Both the position numbers and the translations under genes were made by a program. The notes beneath the pieces are model-generated. The model was not told the origin of the DNA and made no database searches. It worked only from the letters and a program-made list of their open reading frames with translations. From Acidobacteriota bacterium (GTDB taxonomy: Bacteria; Acidobacteriota; Terriglobia; Acidiferrales; UBA7541): a DNA stretch of 64,000 bases. The stretch covers positions 1 to 64,000 of the forward strand of contig JAKASX010000001.1 of assembly GCA_021818865.1 (NCBI GenBank), given 5' to 3'. Shown here piece after piece: positions 47,590 through 58,830 of the stretch. Each line of letters starts with the position of its first letter. Position 1 is the first letter of the stretch.

Positions 47590-48357
47590 CTACGCTTCGC
47601 CCTCCGGTTCCAGCACGTAATTCGCGGCGCCGTTTCCCGTTTCAATCGCGACCACGGCATAGCCGCGGCGAAACCATCCTTCGAGCGACTCGCGAATGCG
47701 CGTTTGCGCCTCGCGCGCCGCTCCGGTGTCGCTGCGCCTCCAGTCCGCGAGTTGCTTTGGCACGGACACGCGCTCGGCGCGCGAACTAAAGTTCTCGACG
47801 GGAGGGAGATCGCGCAGACAGCGCTCGACGCGCTCGGAACGCAGGTCCCATTCCGCCACCAGGCGGTCGGTGGGCAATCCCGAGTGGAGCGGACTGGCCG
47901 TTATGCCATAGCAATCGGGAATCAGACGCCGGACGACCGCGCCCAGACGCATCAGGTTGAAATAGGCGTTTTTCACTTCGAGCGGATCGAAGGTCCATTC
48001 GATGCGCTCGATGCCGCGCTCAAGCGCGTCCGTGCGCTGGAAGAGCTTCAGCCCGCGGCCGATGCCGCGATCCCGCGCATCGGGCAGAACGGCGGCCATG
48101 TGCGAATGCAGATAGGGCTTTCCGTCATGCAGACCGGCAAACGCAAACGTGAACCCGACCATCCGCTCGCCTTCAAACGCCCCGATCACCTGCCCGCCCG
48201 TTTCCACCGCGACGACGTAGAGCGTGAACGGAACTTCCATTTCCGGATCGCTCCAGACGGCGCGCTCGACGGCCTGGCAGGCGTGAAATTCCTGATGAGT
48301 GCGACAATGGCGGTATTCGATTTTCACTTCTGCTCGAAGCGTTTCGCCCGATTCCAC
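47590..48357 (-). CDS. GNAT-family acyltransferase (COG3375-like)
   Basis: This 255-residue GNAT protein has the acyl-CoA core AAVLPDARDRGIGRGLKLFQR and MVGFTFAFAGLHDGKPYLHSHM. The C-terminal half contains FDPLEVKNAYFNLMRLGA, typical of the predicted GNAT superfamily COG3375, which is often encoded beside N-acyl/succinylamino acid racemases and can act as the N-succinyltransferase. Here it lies between mazG (34-base overlap) and the racemase-like gene (72-base gap), fitting that pathway. Confidence 0.82.
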   Translation of the reverse strand: MESGETLRAEVKIEYRHCRTHQEFHACQAVERAVWSDPEMEVPFTLYVVAVETGGQVIGAFEGERMVGFTFAFAGLHDGKPYLHSHMAAVLPDARDRGIGRGLKLFQRTDALERGIERIEWTFDPLEVKNAYFNLMRLGAVVRRLIPDCYGITASPLHSGLPTDRLVAEWDLRSERVERCLRDLPPVENFSSRAERVSVPKQLADWRRSDTGAAREAQTRIRESLEGWFRRGYAVVAIETGNGAANYVLEPEGEA

Positions 48358-49196
48358 AGTTTGTCCAATTCCTCCAATTGTAGTTCTTCCAACCGGCGGC
48401 CTTTCCGCTCGGCCTGCTGTTCGATATGGCGGAAGCGGCGCTCGAATTTGCGATTCGCCTTCTTCAGCGCGATTTCGGGATCGAGGCCGAGGAAGCGAGC
48501 AACGTTGGCGGCGGCGAACAGCAAATCGCCCGCTTCTTCCTCGACTTTGCGATGATCGATCGCATGCCTCGCGCGTCCGCGCCGCTTTCCGCGCTTCCCT
48601 GCCCTACGCGCGGCGCGGCGCAGTTCGCCGAGTTCTTCCTCGATTTTGTCCGCAACGCCGTCGAGGTCTTTCCAATCGAAGCCGACATTGGCCGCGCGCC
48701 GGGAAAGCTGAAAGGCCTCGGCGAGAGCGGGAAGGCGGCGGTTGACGCCGTCGAGCACCGATCGCCGTTCCGGCTCGCCTTCCGCGCGCCGTTCCTCGGC
48801 CTTGAGTTCTTCCCATCGTTTCAGGACTTCAGCGGAGGTTCGCGCGCGTCCCGCGGCGAAAACGTGCGGATGTCGCCGGACCAGCTTTTCGCGAATTGCC
48901 CGCGGGACGGCGGCCGCGTCGAAACGCTTCGTTTCCGCGGCGATTTGCGCGTGGAAAACCACCTGGAGCAACAGATCGCCAAGTTCGGAAACCAGTTTGC
49001 GGTCGTCGCCCGAATCGAGGGCTTCGAGCACTTCGTAGGTTTCCTCGAGGAGGAACGGTTTCAGGGATTCGTGGGTTTGCTCGCGATCCCACGGACAGCC
49101 GCGTGGCGCGCGCAGGCGCTGCTGCACTTCCACCAATTTTGCGAATTCCCGCCCGGCGCGCGTGGCGACCGAGCGAACGGCTTTTCTCCCCGGCAT
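48324..49196 (-). CDS. mazG: Nucleoside triphosphate pyrophosphohydrolase MazG
   Basis: The enzyme of about 290 residues has two MazG domains. Domain 1 includes LRAPRGCPWDREQTHESLKPF, EETYEVLEALDSGD and ELGDLLLQVVFHAQIA. Domain 2 includes VGFDWKDLDGVADKIEEE and EEEAGDLLFAAANVARFLG. It hydrolyses NTPs to NMPs and PPi, cleaning up non-canonical nucleotides. A basic insert (RRAGKRGKRRGRARH) lies in domain 2. ATG 49196 is chosen because the frame upstream lacks conservation. Confidence 0.92.
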   Translation of the reverse strand: MPGRKAVRSVATRAGREFAKLVEVQQRLRAPRGCPWDREQTHESLKPFLLEETYEVLEALDSGDDRKLVSELGDLLLQVVFHAQIAAETKRFDAAAVPRAIREKLVRRHPHVFAAGRARTSAEVLKRWEELKAEERRAEGEPERRSVLDGVNRRLPALAEAFQLSRRAANVGFDWKDLDGVADKIEEELGELRRAARRAGKRGKRRGRARHAIDHRKVEEEAGDLLFAAANVARFLGLDPEIALKKANRKFERRFRHIEQQAERKGRRLEELQLEELDKLWNRAKRFEQK

Positions 49197-49769
49197 AAGC
49201 GGCAAACGATGCGAGACGCCCACTGTACGGCATGGCGCGCGGCGCGCGCAAGCCGCGCACGTTTGTGAGGAGCGATCAACGGGGCTGCAAATTCGTGACG
49301 ATTTCGGAAATCGCGTGGGTGTCACTGGTGTGGCCGGGTACAGCAATGTCGCGAGGTTTTGCACGCATGTCATGATGGCGCCAGGGTAAGAGCGAGATCA
49401 TGGCCACGCAAGGGATGGGTCTACGTGGGGGGCGAGCGCAGTTCACGCCGCGCGGCGGGTCAGGGGGGAGGAGCCGTCGAACGCGCACCGCCGTCGGCGC
49501 GTAACCGAGTAGATAGAAACCGCGTTCCCGCAACTCGCTGGAGGTGCGGCGTCGTTCGAGCCGGTTAGGCATGGCCAGGTTCGGCGCCCGCGCTCTCCAT
49601 GCGAGCATTGGAGCGTCCGCGACGACAGCTCAAGCGCTGCCTCTTCGCCGGATGGCCCGCCCACAGCTTGGGAGGGGCGCGAGGCGCCCGCCCGCGCCAA
49701 GCGTGAAAGGCTATCGCCGAGCGCCGCTCGATCGCTCGCAGGCCCAGGGCCGGCCGGAGGGGCCAGCCC
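49197..49769. other. Gene-poor stretch at the left edge of the accessory island
   Basis: In 573 bases I find no supportable gene. A minus-strand open frame (49276-49608) has no recognised motif and overlaps others. Composition is GC-rich with short inverted repeats such as GGGCGC-GAG-GCGCCC near 49675. Confidence 0.45.
49746..49768. terminator. Hairpin just after the DAC-domain gene
   Basis: GGGCCGGCC (49746-49754) pairs with GGCCAGCCC (49760-49768) at 8 of 9 positions. It begins 1 base past the stop of the minus-strand gene. No T-run is present. Confidence 0.4.
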
Positions 49770-51551
49770 TCATTCATTCACGTAGTAAAGGGCTGGATTC
49801 ATGGCGGGGTCTGGCACGAAGGGGGACCGGTCGATCCAGATCGTGGTTTGGTCTTGGCGCCGGATCCGCTCCTCCAAGCCGTCCACCAGTTCATTGAGGG
49901 TCTTGCAATCAGCTTCTGTAAGGTAGAACCGATGGGCATCAAGCCACTCGAGGTTCTGGCGGTAGAGCTTTCTCTCGATTCTCTCGGCGCTCGCCATCCC
50001 GACAATTGTCCCGATTGCTGAGTCAATTAGCGAGCGGCGGATTGCAGGCCGGGGGTCGGGTACAAAGTCGACGCCGCCGTCAGAGGAAACGATGACTATT
50101 ATGCAGGGTGCGTCTAAGGACTCGTAGTACCGTATCGCCGAATTGTATCGGGCTCCGCGGCTCGGGTCGCCATGATCTGTCGCTCTCCCGTCTAGAATCG
50201 TGCCAATCGCGTGGCAGACCCCCGAGGGTTCCAGGATGATCGCGCCGTCAATCGGCGTCAGATTTCTAAGGATTGTCTCATTTAAGGAGAAGGGTCTAAC
50301 GGACGTCGCCTGGCGCGCGAGGCGCGAGGCCTCGTCTGCGGCTGCTTCCGTCACAACGAGCATGGTGCCGTGGCTTTCCTCTTCAGCGACTCGAGCAAGA
50401 GCGACGAGCCTCTCGACCTCAACGGAGGTGATTCCGCAGAAAATCCTTGGGAGGTCCGTGCGGAGTTTGTCCTCATCAAATGGAAGTTTCGGTAGCGACG
50501 GTAGTCCGTACCGGACCGTCATGAGGGTTTGGCCCCCGTGCTTGAGTTCCCAACGATGGTGGTCGACGATCCGAACTTCGAAAAGGTCCTCTTCGTCCGC
50601 GCTATATCCTCGCTCCTGGGCCAAACCGTAAATTTGATCGGGATCGCAGTAGAGGGGCAGTTCGTCAGACGCGAGTTCGAGAAGTTTTCTCGCGGATCTG
50701 TAAGAGGTCAGCTTCACCGGCGCGGCAAGTGACACTTTCTCTGATACTGCGGGGTGACACTTCCTCGCAATCAGGACCCTCCCCGCTCCGGCCCCCTTTT
50801 CGTACCGCAGTGAAGAGATCGTCGTCAGGGTGCGGAAGAGGCCATACATTCCCTCCAGGGAGTTTTGGTCAACTCTCCACACCATTCCTGTCGTGAGTCT
50901 GTCTCCGGCAGTGCGGAGGAAATCGTCTGGGTCCCCGTGTGAAAGGCGTGCTCCCGGGTCTGGGCCACGCAGGTCCCGCTGGGCTGCCTCCAGAAACGCT
51001 TCCGCGGCAGCCTCGATGAGAGAGGTGGGGACTCTAACGTGCCGGTGTTCGTGCATTGCGACGGATGCTCGCTGCAGCCGTGGGTACGCGCTCATCACCG
51101 CGTGCTGCAACCCGAGGGCAACGCACACCCAATAGGATTCCACTTTCTCCGGATACGAGACGCGGAACTCCATATCCGACGGCTTCGAGTCGTGGGCCTC
51201 GATGGCTTGCCGGACGGCGTCTTGGATCGAGCGCTTGAATAGATTCTCATCCTGTCTCTGTTGGGCTATCGGATGGGACTGAAACATGGCAGCCTCAGGG
51301 TACGTCTTGCGTAGGCCCTCGGCTATCCGGGGAACCCCGTTGAGATCCTCGGACTGAATCCAAAACTCGTCCTCGGGTTCGATACAAACGTGGAACTTGT
51401 CGGGTACATCATCCGCAAGAATGCCAACGAGAAATACTTCGGGCTTAAGCCTTGCGTCCAGGCGTTCGAACAGACGCGCGGCCGTGGATTCTTGGCCGAC
51501 TCTGAAGTGGGGCTGGTAGCCCCACATGAAGTGTTTTATCACGTGCATCAT
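49770..51551 (-). CDS. Diadenylate-cyclase-type (DisA_N-like) protein with large N-terminal sensor region
   Basis: This is a 593-residue soluble protein. Residues ~425-505 resemble the DAC/DisA_N catalytic domain: TPIDGAIILEPSGVCHAIG holds the conserved DGA (435-437), and RGARYNSAIRYYE aligns with the GTRHR motif but reads R-Y-N (468-470). VIVSSDGGVDFVP follows as in DAC domains. The ~420-residue N-terminal part has no membrane segment and matches in layout the 'DACNV' sensor-type proteins described from comparative genomics of nucleotide signalling. The product would be c-di-AMP or a variant nucleotide, if active. It is monocistronic and its base composition is less GC-rich than its neighbours. 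Confidence 0.7.
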   Translation of the reverse strand: MMHVIKHFMWGYQPHFRVGQESTAARLFERLDARLKPEVFLVGILADDVPDKFHVCIEPEDEFWIQSEDLNGVPRIAEGLRKTYPEAAMFQSHPIAQQRQDENLFKRSIQDAVRQAIEAHDSKPSDMEFRVSYPEKVESYWVCVALGLQHAVMSAYPRLQRASVAMHEHRHVRVPTSLIEAAAEAFLEAAQRDLRGPDPGARLSHGDPDDFLRTAGDRLTTGMVWRVDQNSLEGMYGLFRTLTTISSLRYEKGAGAGRVLIARKCHPAVSEKVSLAAPVKLTSYRSARKLLELASDELPLYCDPDQIYGLAQERGYSADEEDLFEVRIVDHHRWELKHGGQTLMTVRYGLPSLPKLPFDEDKLRTDLPRIFCGITSVEVERLVALARVAEEESHGTMLVVTEAAADEASRLARQATSVRPFSLNETILRNLTPIDGAIILEPSGVCHAIGTILDGRATDHGDPSRGARYNSAIRYYESLDAPCIIVIVSSDGGVDFVPDPRPAIRRSLIDSAIGTIVGMASAERIERKLYRQNLEWLDAHRFYLTEADCKTLNELVDGLEERIRRQDQTTIWIDRSPFVPDPAMNPALYYVNE

Positions 51552-52038
51552 GGAGGCTCCAGACTAGCGGCGTGCCTATCCAGAATCAAGTGGCTAGTAC
51601 GCGGTGGTGTGGATGAAACTTAGCGGGTTCTTCCGACATCTTGGGCCCGAGGACTGGGCCGGGACGCGACGCATCGCCGGTGCAGACCACACGAGGACCG
51701 GACACACGCTCCCGAGCCGTACACAAGCTCCGGGCCTTGCGGGCGAGACCGGAAGAGCGTGGTGCCCAAACTTCGAGCCGGATTTGCCGGCTTCGGCCAA
51801 ACCCGATGTTGTTTGATGTGCGGGCCTCCGCAGGCGCGGAGTATGGTTCCGCAAAAGCCCTCCCCGAAAATGGGTCAACGGCACGGCATCCACGAAGCGC
51901 GCGCGGATGCAAAGGGCAAGGAAGGCGTGATGGGCGTGGCCAAGGAGCGCGAAGGCGCGCAAAAGTCGCTCGAGGACGGGCAGCCTGCCGGATGTATTGT
52001 CTATGGCTCGGTGGTAGTGGAAGTTCGCCGTGCTTTTC
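51552..52038. other. Stretch without a recognised gene
   Basis: The 487 bases between the DAC gene and the YdeI/OmdA gene contain only overlapping short open frames on both strands with Arg/Pro/Ala-rich, unrecognised translations. It may hold decayed sequence. Confidence 0.45.
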
Positions 52039-55127: not shown

Positions 55128-55988
55128 TCAGGCCTGGGCTTTGGCGCGATGCGCGAAGCCAGTTTCGGGTTCGGGTGACAAACCGGAATCCGTCAGGGCG
55201 GCCTTTCCCAAAGCGTAATTCACGGCGGCGGAGCAGACGACCAGAGCGAATTTCGCGTCGTCGAATTGCGCTTCTTCTCTCTCGGCGTCCCGCCTTTGGC
55301 CGGGGGCCGACCAGATGCGCGACTGGCGCGATGGCTTCCGCGACCGCTCGACGGAGGGAAGACCCGCCACGACCGCATCGGCCATTCTGCGCAGAAATTC
55401 CGGCGCGCGTTCGCCGAGAGTGCGTTCGAGCGCGGCCAAAGCTTGGAGCGATTCCCGAACGGAAGCTTCGTAGTCCGGCGCATGGCGGTCGGCCAGCAGA
55501 GCGAGGGCGCGATGCAGCCTCTCGCTCACCCCGTCGAGAGGATGGGCGCTCGCGAGCGCCTGTTCGATCGCCTCGAATTCCTCGCTGGAACTCACGCGGA
55601 CCAGCCGCTGGCCGAGGAAGCGATACGGCGCGAGTTCCTGCACGAACACCGCGTTGGCGCGCGCCATGAACCGGGCGTTCAGGTCGGCCGAGGGAAAGGC
55701 GCCGGCGCAGAATTCGAGGAAGTCGTACACCTGGTTCCATTCGGCGTGAAAGTAATAGTCGCGAATCGTCTGCAAGACCGTGGCGTAAGGGATGGAATCC
55801 TGCGGCCATTTGAAATATTCGTCCCACAGGCGCTCGACGAACGCGTTGAGTTCCGGACTCCAGGCGGCGGAGCTGAAGTAGGAGGAGCGAATGACGTTCC
55901 ACAAGCGATTGCGCAGACTCGGCTCGAGCGCATCGGCCGAGAGAGCCTTGAGCGACTGAAGCCCGGCTCGTTCGGAGAACGACCTCAT
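55128..55988 (-). CDS. AbiJ-NTD4-like protein (possible phage-defence related)
   Basis: The 286-residue protein starts MRSFSERAGLQ, continues LEPSLRNRLWNVI, LWDEYFKWPQDSIPY and WNQVYDFLEF, matching the N-terminal domain 4 found in AbiJ-like proteins. The C-terminal half is helical (RALALLADRHAPDYEASVRESLQALAALERTLG, FALVVCSAAVNYALGKA), like the C-terminal region of those proteins. The expected GIRH motif before the last helix is not seen (the region reads PGQRRDAEREE). GGAGG lies upstream of ATG 55988. No partner gene is present. A defence role is inferred from family only. Confidence 0.7.
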   Translation of the reverse strand: MRSFSERAGLQSLKALSADALEPSLRNRLWNVIRSSYFSSAAWSPELNAFVERLWDEYFKWPQDSIPYATVLQTIRDYYFHAEWNQVYDFLEFCAGAFPSADLNARFMARANAVFVQELAPYRFLGQRLVRVSSSEEFEAIEQALASAHPLDGVSERLHRALALLADRHAPDYEASVRESLQALAALERTLGERAPEFLRRMADAVVAGLPSVERSRKPSRQSRIWSAPGQRRDAEREEAQFDDAKFALVVCSAAVNYALGKAALTDSGLSPEPETGFAHRAKAQA

Positions 55989-56196
55989 CGAGGCCTCCGT
56001 TTCTCCAACGTGTCGCTCATGTACCAAATTCGGAGGCGGTCGTTCAAGAAAAAAATGCGCGGCCCGTTTTTCCTTGTCCTGGGCGTCGCCTGTTTCCCGA
56101 CGCGGACGAGTCTCGGGAAAAGGTTGCGGAGTGCCGGTCCGCAAGGCCGCAGGAGGTCGTCCTGGGAGCGGCTTTTGAATCCCGGTTCTCGCGCCT

Positions 56197-58830
56197 TTAC
56201 TCGAACCGGAGGGTTTGGACGGGATCCACGCGAGCGGCCTGACGCGCGGGGACGTAGCTGGCCAAAAGGGCTGCCGCGGCCAGCACGACGGCCGCAGAGC
56301 CAAAAGCGATCGGATCGGTAGCCTTGACGCCGACGATCAGCCTGGCGAGCACACGCGCGAGGCCATAGGCCAACGGGAGGCCGAGGGCGAGACCTATGCC
56401 GAGCAGCCGTGCGCCGCGCCGCAGCAAGAGGCCAAGCACGCTGGCAGAGCTTGCCCCCAGCGACATGCGGACGCCGATTTCGTGACGTCGTTCGGCCACC
56501 GAATACGCCATCACGCTATACACGCCGGTTGCGGCCAGTCCGAACGCGATGAGACCCAAGGCGCTCATAAAGCCGGCGATGAGCCCGATCCCGCCCATGG
56601 AATCGTGAATCGCCTGCCGCAGGGTTTCGGGATGCCTTTCCATATCGCCGGTGACGGGCAGGTCGGGATCGATGGTGGCAACGACCTGGCGAACGGAGGG
56701 AGCCAGTGAAATGGGACCGGCGGAGCTGCGAATCGCGAAAAATGAGTCCGATGGCGGCGCCTGCTGTAAAGGACGGAAAATCGCGTTTTCCGGCGTCTGG
56801 TCCGTCCAATCCCACAGCACGGTTCCGACGACGCCGACAACCGTCAGCCAGCGGCCGGGCTTGCCCGAGCGCACCAGACGGATCTGGCTGCCGATTGCGC
56901 CTCCCTGAGGCCAGTAGCGCCGGGCGAGGTTGCGGCTGACGATGGCAACGGGCAAGGATGCGGCGGAGTCGGCGGACGTGAAATCGCGGCCGGCAACGAG
57001 CGGGACGTGCATCATCGCGAAAAAGCCGGGGCTGATGCTCTGAGCGTCAGCCCAAGGCAACGATTTCAGGCTCCTCTGATTGTTTCCGGCTACCTGGAAA
57101 TCGCGGCCCACGCCACCACCGTTGCTCATCGGGAAAGTGGTGAACGCGGATACGAATCGGGCGCCGGGAATGGCGCGAAGTTTTTGAAGGGCCTGCTCGT
57201 AAAAAGCCGCGCGCTCGTCTGATTGGTTGTAACGCGCCTTGGGGAGGGCGACGTGAAAGAGCAGCACGCTCGACGGCGCAAATTGCTTTTGCCGGGCCAG
57301 CATATCCTGAAAGCCGTCCACCAGCAGCCCCGTCCCAACGAGCAGCACCAATGCCATCGCCATCTGCGCGACAACCAGCGCTCCCTGCAGCCAGCGGTGC
57401 GCGCGACCGGGCGTCTGCGTCCGGCCGCCCTCTTTGAGCGTTCCGATCAAATCAGGTTTCGAAGCGTAGAGAGCGGGCAGGATGCCGGAAACAATCCCGG
57501 CAGCGACGGCAATGCTCATCGTGAACGCCAGGGCGAGGGGGCTTAGCCGGATTCGGTTCCAACCGGAAATCAACTGAGCGACAGCCCTCGGCATTCCCGC
57601 CGCGGCCAGGTGGATCCAGATGACCGCGAGCAGCAACCCGCCGGCAGCGCCCAGCAGCGCCGTCAGGATGCTTTCGACCATCAGTTGCCGCACGACCCTG
57701 CGGCGCGTGGCGCCGAGCGATGCGCGCACGGCGATTTCCCTTCGCCGCGAAGTTCCTCGGGCCAATTGCAGATTGGTCACGTTGGCGCAGGCGATCAGTA
57801 AAACCAGACCCAGCGCCACGGCGAACATCAGACCCCAGTAGTAGCTGAGATTTCCGTTGATGTACACACGGAGCGAGCGCAGGAGGACGGAAAGGCCGCG
57901 ATTGCTTTCGGGAAAAGATTTGGCGAGGCCGGCGGCGAGCGTCCTCAATTCCGCCTGCGCCTGGGCCATCGAGACGCCAGGCTTCAAGAGGCCGAGCACG
58001 GTCAGGTTGTGAGCGCTGCGATCCGCGCGTTCGGCGGGAGAAAGAGCCAGAGGAACGCAGATGTCGGTGTGCGGATACTCGATGGCGCGCGGCATCACGC
58101 CGACGATCGTATAGGCGGCATGATCCAGCTCGATCGTCCTGCCAACGGCATGCGGGTCTCCCGCGAACTCGCTCTGCCAATAGCGATACGACAGAAGTGC
58201 GACGTGGCCGCGGCCCGGTCGGGATTCACCGGAAGAAAACGAACGGCCGAGGAACGGCCTGGCGCCGAGCACTTGATAAAAGTCGGGAGTGATCGCCACG
58301 GCGGCCACCATCCCGGCGGGTCCTTCGCCGGTGCGGTCGAACTGCCGGTAGCGAAGGGCGGCGAGGCCTTCGAAAGACCGCGCGTGGCTTTGCCAATCGA
58401 GATAATCGGCGTAGGAGACGCCGGTCCAGCTGCGCGTTTTTTTCCGCCAACCATTGATCAATACCAACCGGCCGAAATCCCTTACGGGGATGGCATGCCA
58501 AACGATCGCGTCGAAGATGCTGAAATTCGCCGCGTTCGCGCCGATTCCCACCGCCAACGCGACGATGGCCGCAAACGCGAAGGCGGGATTGCGGCGCAAT
58601 TGCCGTGCGGCGTAGCGGACGTCTTGCCAAAGCTCTTCGAGCCAGAGAATGGTCCACACGGCCCGTGTGTCTTCCCTTGCCAACGCCACGTTCCCGAATT
58701 TGAGCATCGCCGCGCGCCGCGCCTGCTCCGGCTTCATTCCGCGTTCGATGTTCTGCTGCATTTCCCGCTCGATGTGCGCGCGAATCTCCTCGTCGAGCGC
58801 CTCCAGCATCCGCTTGCGGCGCCATTTCAC
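56197..58830 (-). CDS. ADOP-family (MacB/FtsX-type) permease
   Basis: This protein of about 877 residues is of the acidobacterial duplicated orphan permease type. An N-terminal permease-prefix domain ([29 protein letters not shown]) is followed by a helix, a MacB periplasmic core domain, an FtsX helix group ([33 protein letters not shown]), a second periplasmic domain and a second FtsX group ([23 protein letters not shown]). No ATPase gene is adjacent, as is usual for this family. The GTG at 58830 overlaps the padR stop by 4 bases and is chosen over an upstream in-frame ATG (58893) inside padR. Confidence 0.92.

Follow-up and report, generated by a model that had tools for sequence, protein, structure and literature searches.

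A solo RYN-bearing DACNG-DACNH-DAC protein of the DS-2C family encoded within an insertion in an Acidobacteriota genome

Background

Diadenylate cyclases (DACs) have been tied experimentally to phage defence only recently, through DS-2. DeWeirdt et al. (PMC13092281) describe DS-2 as a three-gene E. coli defence system comprising a patatin phospholipase, a CD-NTase and a DAC, which was validated in the DefensePredictor study and which lost defence when two predicted catalytic DAC residues were mutated. In the same study, 15 of 30 homologs of the DS-2 DAC are located with CBASS; within the DS-2C family, anti-phage activity has been demonstrated solely for the system of E. coli (PMC13092281). We equate with DS-2 an E. 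coli locus annotated ‘anti-phage phospholipase / nucleotidyltransferase / protein’, an assignment based on how its genes are ordered and on the family name given by NCBI; its DAC (DS-2C) scores 819 bits to NCBIfam NF053872 (DS2_3_antiphage, ‘anti-phage protein’) and carries the segment GSRYNSG. NF053872 takes its name from DS-2C, the third gene of DS-2. An RYN-bearing DAC is thereby already linked to defence by experiment.

The RYN segment lies at the place of the RHR motif. Replacing RHR by AAA inactivates both DacA of M. tuberculosis and CdaS of B. thuringiensis (PMC3328451, PMC4568413), so enzymes with RYN are possibly not diadenylate cyclases. Since RHR is essential in the tested DACs, RYN enzymes would use other residues, make another product, or only bind. 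A literature search found no report of the product or exact role of a DAC in phage defence, and to our knowledge no product is known for any RYN DAC.

Results and discussion

Domains and predicted fold

We analysed a 64-kb stretch of DNA, referred to as the window, which contains an ORF for a 593-aa protein (Table 1) with an ATG start, no internal stops and codon-position GC values (0.64/0.43/0.68) that fit coding sequence. No promoter or terminator was detected in a scan around the gene and no RNA families across the window. The encoded protein matches three Pfam domains above their cut-offs, DACNG, DACNH and DAC, the last with 38.3 bits relative to a curated cut-off of 27. The initial annotation, made from sequence alone, had described a DAC-like protein with a large sensor-like N-terminal region of DACNV type; the first two points are borne out, while the DACNV assignment is ruled out by Pfam, which finds DACNG and DACNH in its place.

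Table 1 Features of the DAC locus in the window
Feature	Position	Strand	Basis
DACNG-DACNH-DAC protein gene, DS-2C-like, 593 aa	49770..51551	-	ORF translation, Pfam, NCBIfam, Foldseek
DACNG probable sensor domain, residues 9-219	50895..51527	-	Pfam PF21752, E=2e-49
DACNH probable sensor domain, residues 236-338	50538..50846	-	Pfam PF21750, E=3e-24
DAC catalytic-type domain, residues 390-492	50076..50384	-	Pfam PF02457, E=1.1e-9; Foldseek to CdaA/DisA
DGA motif D435-G436-A437, in TPIDGAII	50241..50249	-	Translation; DG invariant in aligned homologs
RYN motif R468-Y469-N470, in SRGARYNSA, at RHR place	50142..50150	-	Translation, homolog alignment
~2.6 kb insertion, sole gene DAC	49429..52038		45 bp in sister genome G003

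A structural comparison with DisA and CdaA, proposed in the same annotation, supports a DAC fold at the level of AF2 models. Foldseek pairs the whole-protein model with DisA of M. tuberculosis at E=3.8e-5 and a probability of 1.00. A model of the DAC domain only (mean pLDDT 77.7, pTM 0.77) resembles CdaA/DacA with probability 1.00 and TM 0.58-0.60, and TM reaches 0.60 among its matches to the solved enzymes CdaA/DacA/CdaM and DisA, the loop directly preceding RYN being of low confidence. Over both models, Foldseek probabilities to DisA and CdaA are 0.99-1.00. Both the profile match and the predicted fold place the protein in the DAC superfamily.

Relationship to DS-2C and to canonical DACs

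NF053872 matches the window protein with 561.1 bits over residues 5-586 and model positions 1-574 of 576; as the equivalog cut-off is 630 bits, the protein is a homolog of this family and not an equivalog by NCBI’s rule. It has the DS-2C architecture of DACNG, DACNH and an RYN-type DAC, and shares with DS-2C all three domains at full length, the RYN motif, a conserved C-terminal extension and an accessory distribution. It differs from DS-2C in sequence (31 % identity), in its score of 561 against the cut-off of 630, and in the absence of a linked patatin phospholipase and CD-NTase, its neighbours being of housekeeping type. PADLOC 2.0.0 (2023) profiles gave no match to the protein. With CdaA, DisA and CdaS it has in common the DAC fold as predicted, the DG(A) motif, the first R of RHR and the S and acidic residue of S-E-E/S-E-D, whereas Y-N stands for H-R of RHR, an invariant ILDG motif is added, and DACNG/DACNH replace the membrane or DNA-binding parts of those enzymes. 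The DACNH-DAC proteins of Priestia plasmids (L020-L022) likewise combine DACNH with a DAC carrying RYN or RFN, but DACNG was not detected in them and their identity of ~33-35 % to the window protein covers the shared half only.

RYN had been flagged in the initial annotation as a substitution for RHR in this protein. The position stands; the reading as a change particular to this protein does not, and a private mutation is ruled out by the occurrence of RYN across the homolog family. R and N are kept in 22 of 22 homologs (L001-L013, L016-L022, L026 and L027), 19 of which have RYN, with RFN in two and RLN in one. RYN thus characterises, as a fixed trait, a widely distributed subfamily to which the E. 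coli DS-2 DAC also belongs. RHR, the hallmark of canonical c-di-AMP synthases, was present in all 30 canonical DACs examined from the same phylum. The residues R468, Y469, N470, D435, G436, D454, G455 and D491 are invariant in an alignment of 14 sequences, which argues for a selected active site. ILDG is invariant in DS-2C-like homologs and missing from CdaA proteins; the third letter of DGA varies among homologs (A, S, T, G, C), and at position 490, near-invariantly E, the window protein carries S, beside the invariant D491.

A second RHR-less DAC branch occurs in the same phylum, represented by L066:4399-5796 (-) with GARSAAA and L067:4564-6021 (-) with GARTTAA. Both proteins have divergent N-termini, and that of L066 is the sole DAC found in its genome.

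Gene neighbourhoods of homologs

A link to conflict systems had also been suggested initially, and is upheld. Several homologs lie within CBASS operons, and CBASS genes adjoin L004, L005, L016 and L017, the last two having the DS-2 trio. L004 follows a type II-like CBASS (patatin, DncV-like, E1/E2, Cap15), L005 comes immediately after a CD-NTase and Cap15, and L020 has an annotated nucleotidyltransferase nearby. Other homologs have nuclease-type neighbours. These include L003 (PLD), L007:7116-12115, where the DAC homolog is preceded at 22 bp by an Mrr_cat gene and followed closely by a Septu PtuA-like ATPase, and L008:7079-10715, where a DUF6602/NucC-like nuclease gene precedes the DAC homolog by 83 bp and an Mrr-type gene follows it in what is possibly a DAC plus nuclease operon. 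L001, L002, L009, L011 and L012 appear solo amid ordinary genes, and a search for DS-2-type CD-NTases in the genomes of L001, L002, L009 and L011 found none.

In E. coli (L027:6064-15741) the DS-2 trio adjoins a type II CBASS followed by Panoptes-like Cap15-type and mCpol genes, forming a run of cyclic-nucleotide defence genes. In genome G366 of the same phylum as the window, one DS-2C homolog is apparently split over two contigs (L024 and L026); a transposase-like frame, read as IS3-type, and shared sequence at the break make interruption by an insertion element likely.

Insertion site and genome context

The gene is the only one in its insertion (Table 1). The sister genome G003 (~86-87 % DNA identity) has the same flanks with ~45 bp between them, a clean empty site, and G004 and G002 gave no DNA match to the inserted stretch. 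A search of 60 relatives for the gene found none (1/61 counting its own genome), and any match to the DS-2C-like family occurred in 3 of 396 genomes of the phylum; in E. coli the family is found in 20 of 5,426 genomes, and DS-2C-like homologs also occur on plasmids. The GC content of the gene is 58.4 % versus 63-64 % in the flanks, in agreement with the lower-GC island noted initially, and the best match found is from a Desulfobulbaceae MAG (49 %). Taken together, the sequence comparisons are most simply read as a recent horizontal acquisition. Short direct or inverted repeats of the region were not found at both ends of the insertion, and a phage origin was discounted after tblastn against 50,697 phage records returned no match.

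The insertion is flanked by mazG (48324-49373, -) and by DUF1844, MBL and ribF genes (52759 onward, +), consistent with the earlier remark that no effector gene is adjacent. The DAC gene shares its strand with mazG; it is not part of a conserved mazG operon because it lies in an insertion missing from the sister. A gene for a 391-aa AbiJ_NTD4 (Pfam) protein at 55128-56303 (-), ~3.6 kb from the DAC gene, matches the PADLOC candidate defence family PDC-S32 (4e-58); several opposite-strand genes lie in between, and a link to the DAC was rejected.

The single DAC match in the host genome (95 % complete) is the window gene, and the search for a canonical cdaA that the initial annotation had advised detected none. 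DACs above cut-off are present in 305 of 396 genomes of the phylum, mostly with CdaA-typical E-values, and the four other genomes of the host genus have neither a DAC above cut-off nor a homolog of the window gene. No SMODS-type CD-NTase was found in the host genome (valid control), nor a DS-2-type CD-NTase with a profile that recovered positives in two control records and does not extend to the DncV-like clade present at L004. A search of the host genome for Cap15-like genes, run without a positive control, was empty. At the locus itself no CD-NTase shares an operon with a cyclic-nucleotide-activated effector, as it would in CBASS, and we found no indication of the protein supplying a known c-di-AMP network or a CBASS linked to it. 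With no adjacent effector, and no SMODS- or DS-2-type CD-NTase found in the genome, it cannot operate together with a CBASS pair of its own in the way proposed for DS-2.

Possible roles of the window protein

We consider it probable that the window protein was acquired horizontally as a solo representative of the DS-2C family and synthesises a nucleotide second messenger in anti-phage defence. The DACNG/DACNH half would sense an infection cue, and the DAC domain, paired head-to-head with that of a second copy as in known DACs, would make a cyclic dinucleotide from two NTPs (most likely ATP) that would act on an unlinked effector or be sensed by the very protein that makes it. The residues Y and N in RYN would take over the nucleotide or metal contacts of H and R, possibly aided by the invariant I-L-D-G motif. 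Against a synthase stand the loss of activity on exchange of RHR for AAA in tested DACs, the lack of an adjacent effector and of a detected SMODS- or DS-2-type CD-NTase, the score below the equivalog cut-off, the 31 % identity to DS-2C and the S at E490.

A catalytically changed or inactive DAC, in which RYN still supports binding of a nucleotide but not its cyclisation and the protein would regulate defence by nucleotide sensing, is the less likely but still appreciable alternative. It draws on the requirement for RHR in tested DACs (PMC3328451, PMC4568413), the drift of the third DGA position and the other RHR-less branch of the phylum, but has to account for R, N, DG, ILDG and the D of SED being invariant or nearly so in homologs at ~30 % identity. 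The loss of defence in predicted catalytic mutants of DS-2C (PMC13092281) also speaks against it, although such mutations could equally hit binding.

More speculatively, and with rather low probability, RYN DACs may constitute a separate class of defence cyclases whose product is not 3′,3′-c-di-AMP, the solo form being a one-gene system in which DACNG/DACNH both senses and effects.

The Cap15-type genes beside L004 and L005 and the CBASS, Cap15 and mCpol genes adjoining E. coli DS-2 recall Panoptes, which uses 2′,3′-c-di-AMP and a Cap15-like effector (PMC12657218). A similar guard, with a DAC that continuously supplies a cyclic dinucleotide as decoy and an effector triggered once phage proteins soak it up, is improbable for the window protein, next to which no Cap15-like gene lies and in whose genome the search described above found none. 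That the gene replaces a housekeeping c-di-AMP synthase in a lineage that lost CdaA is very improbable. In its favour, a DAC above cut-off is present in 305 of 396 genomes of the phylum and none was found in the host genus besides the window gene. Against it, the insertion is recent and present in a single genome, and the four other genomes of the genus, lacking both CdaA and this gene, do without such a function.

Conclusions

The window protein adds a solo member to a known and recently validated defence family that has RYN as a shared trait. With neither a canonical DAC nor an SMODS- or DS-2-type CD-NTase found in its genome, this solo RYN DAC offers a clean test case both for the product of RYN DACs and for whether such a protein may confer defence alone.
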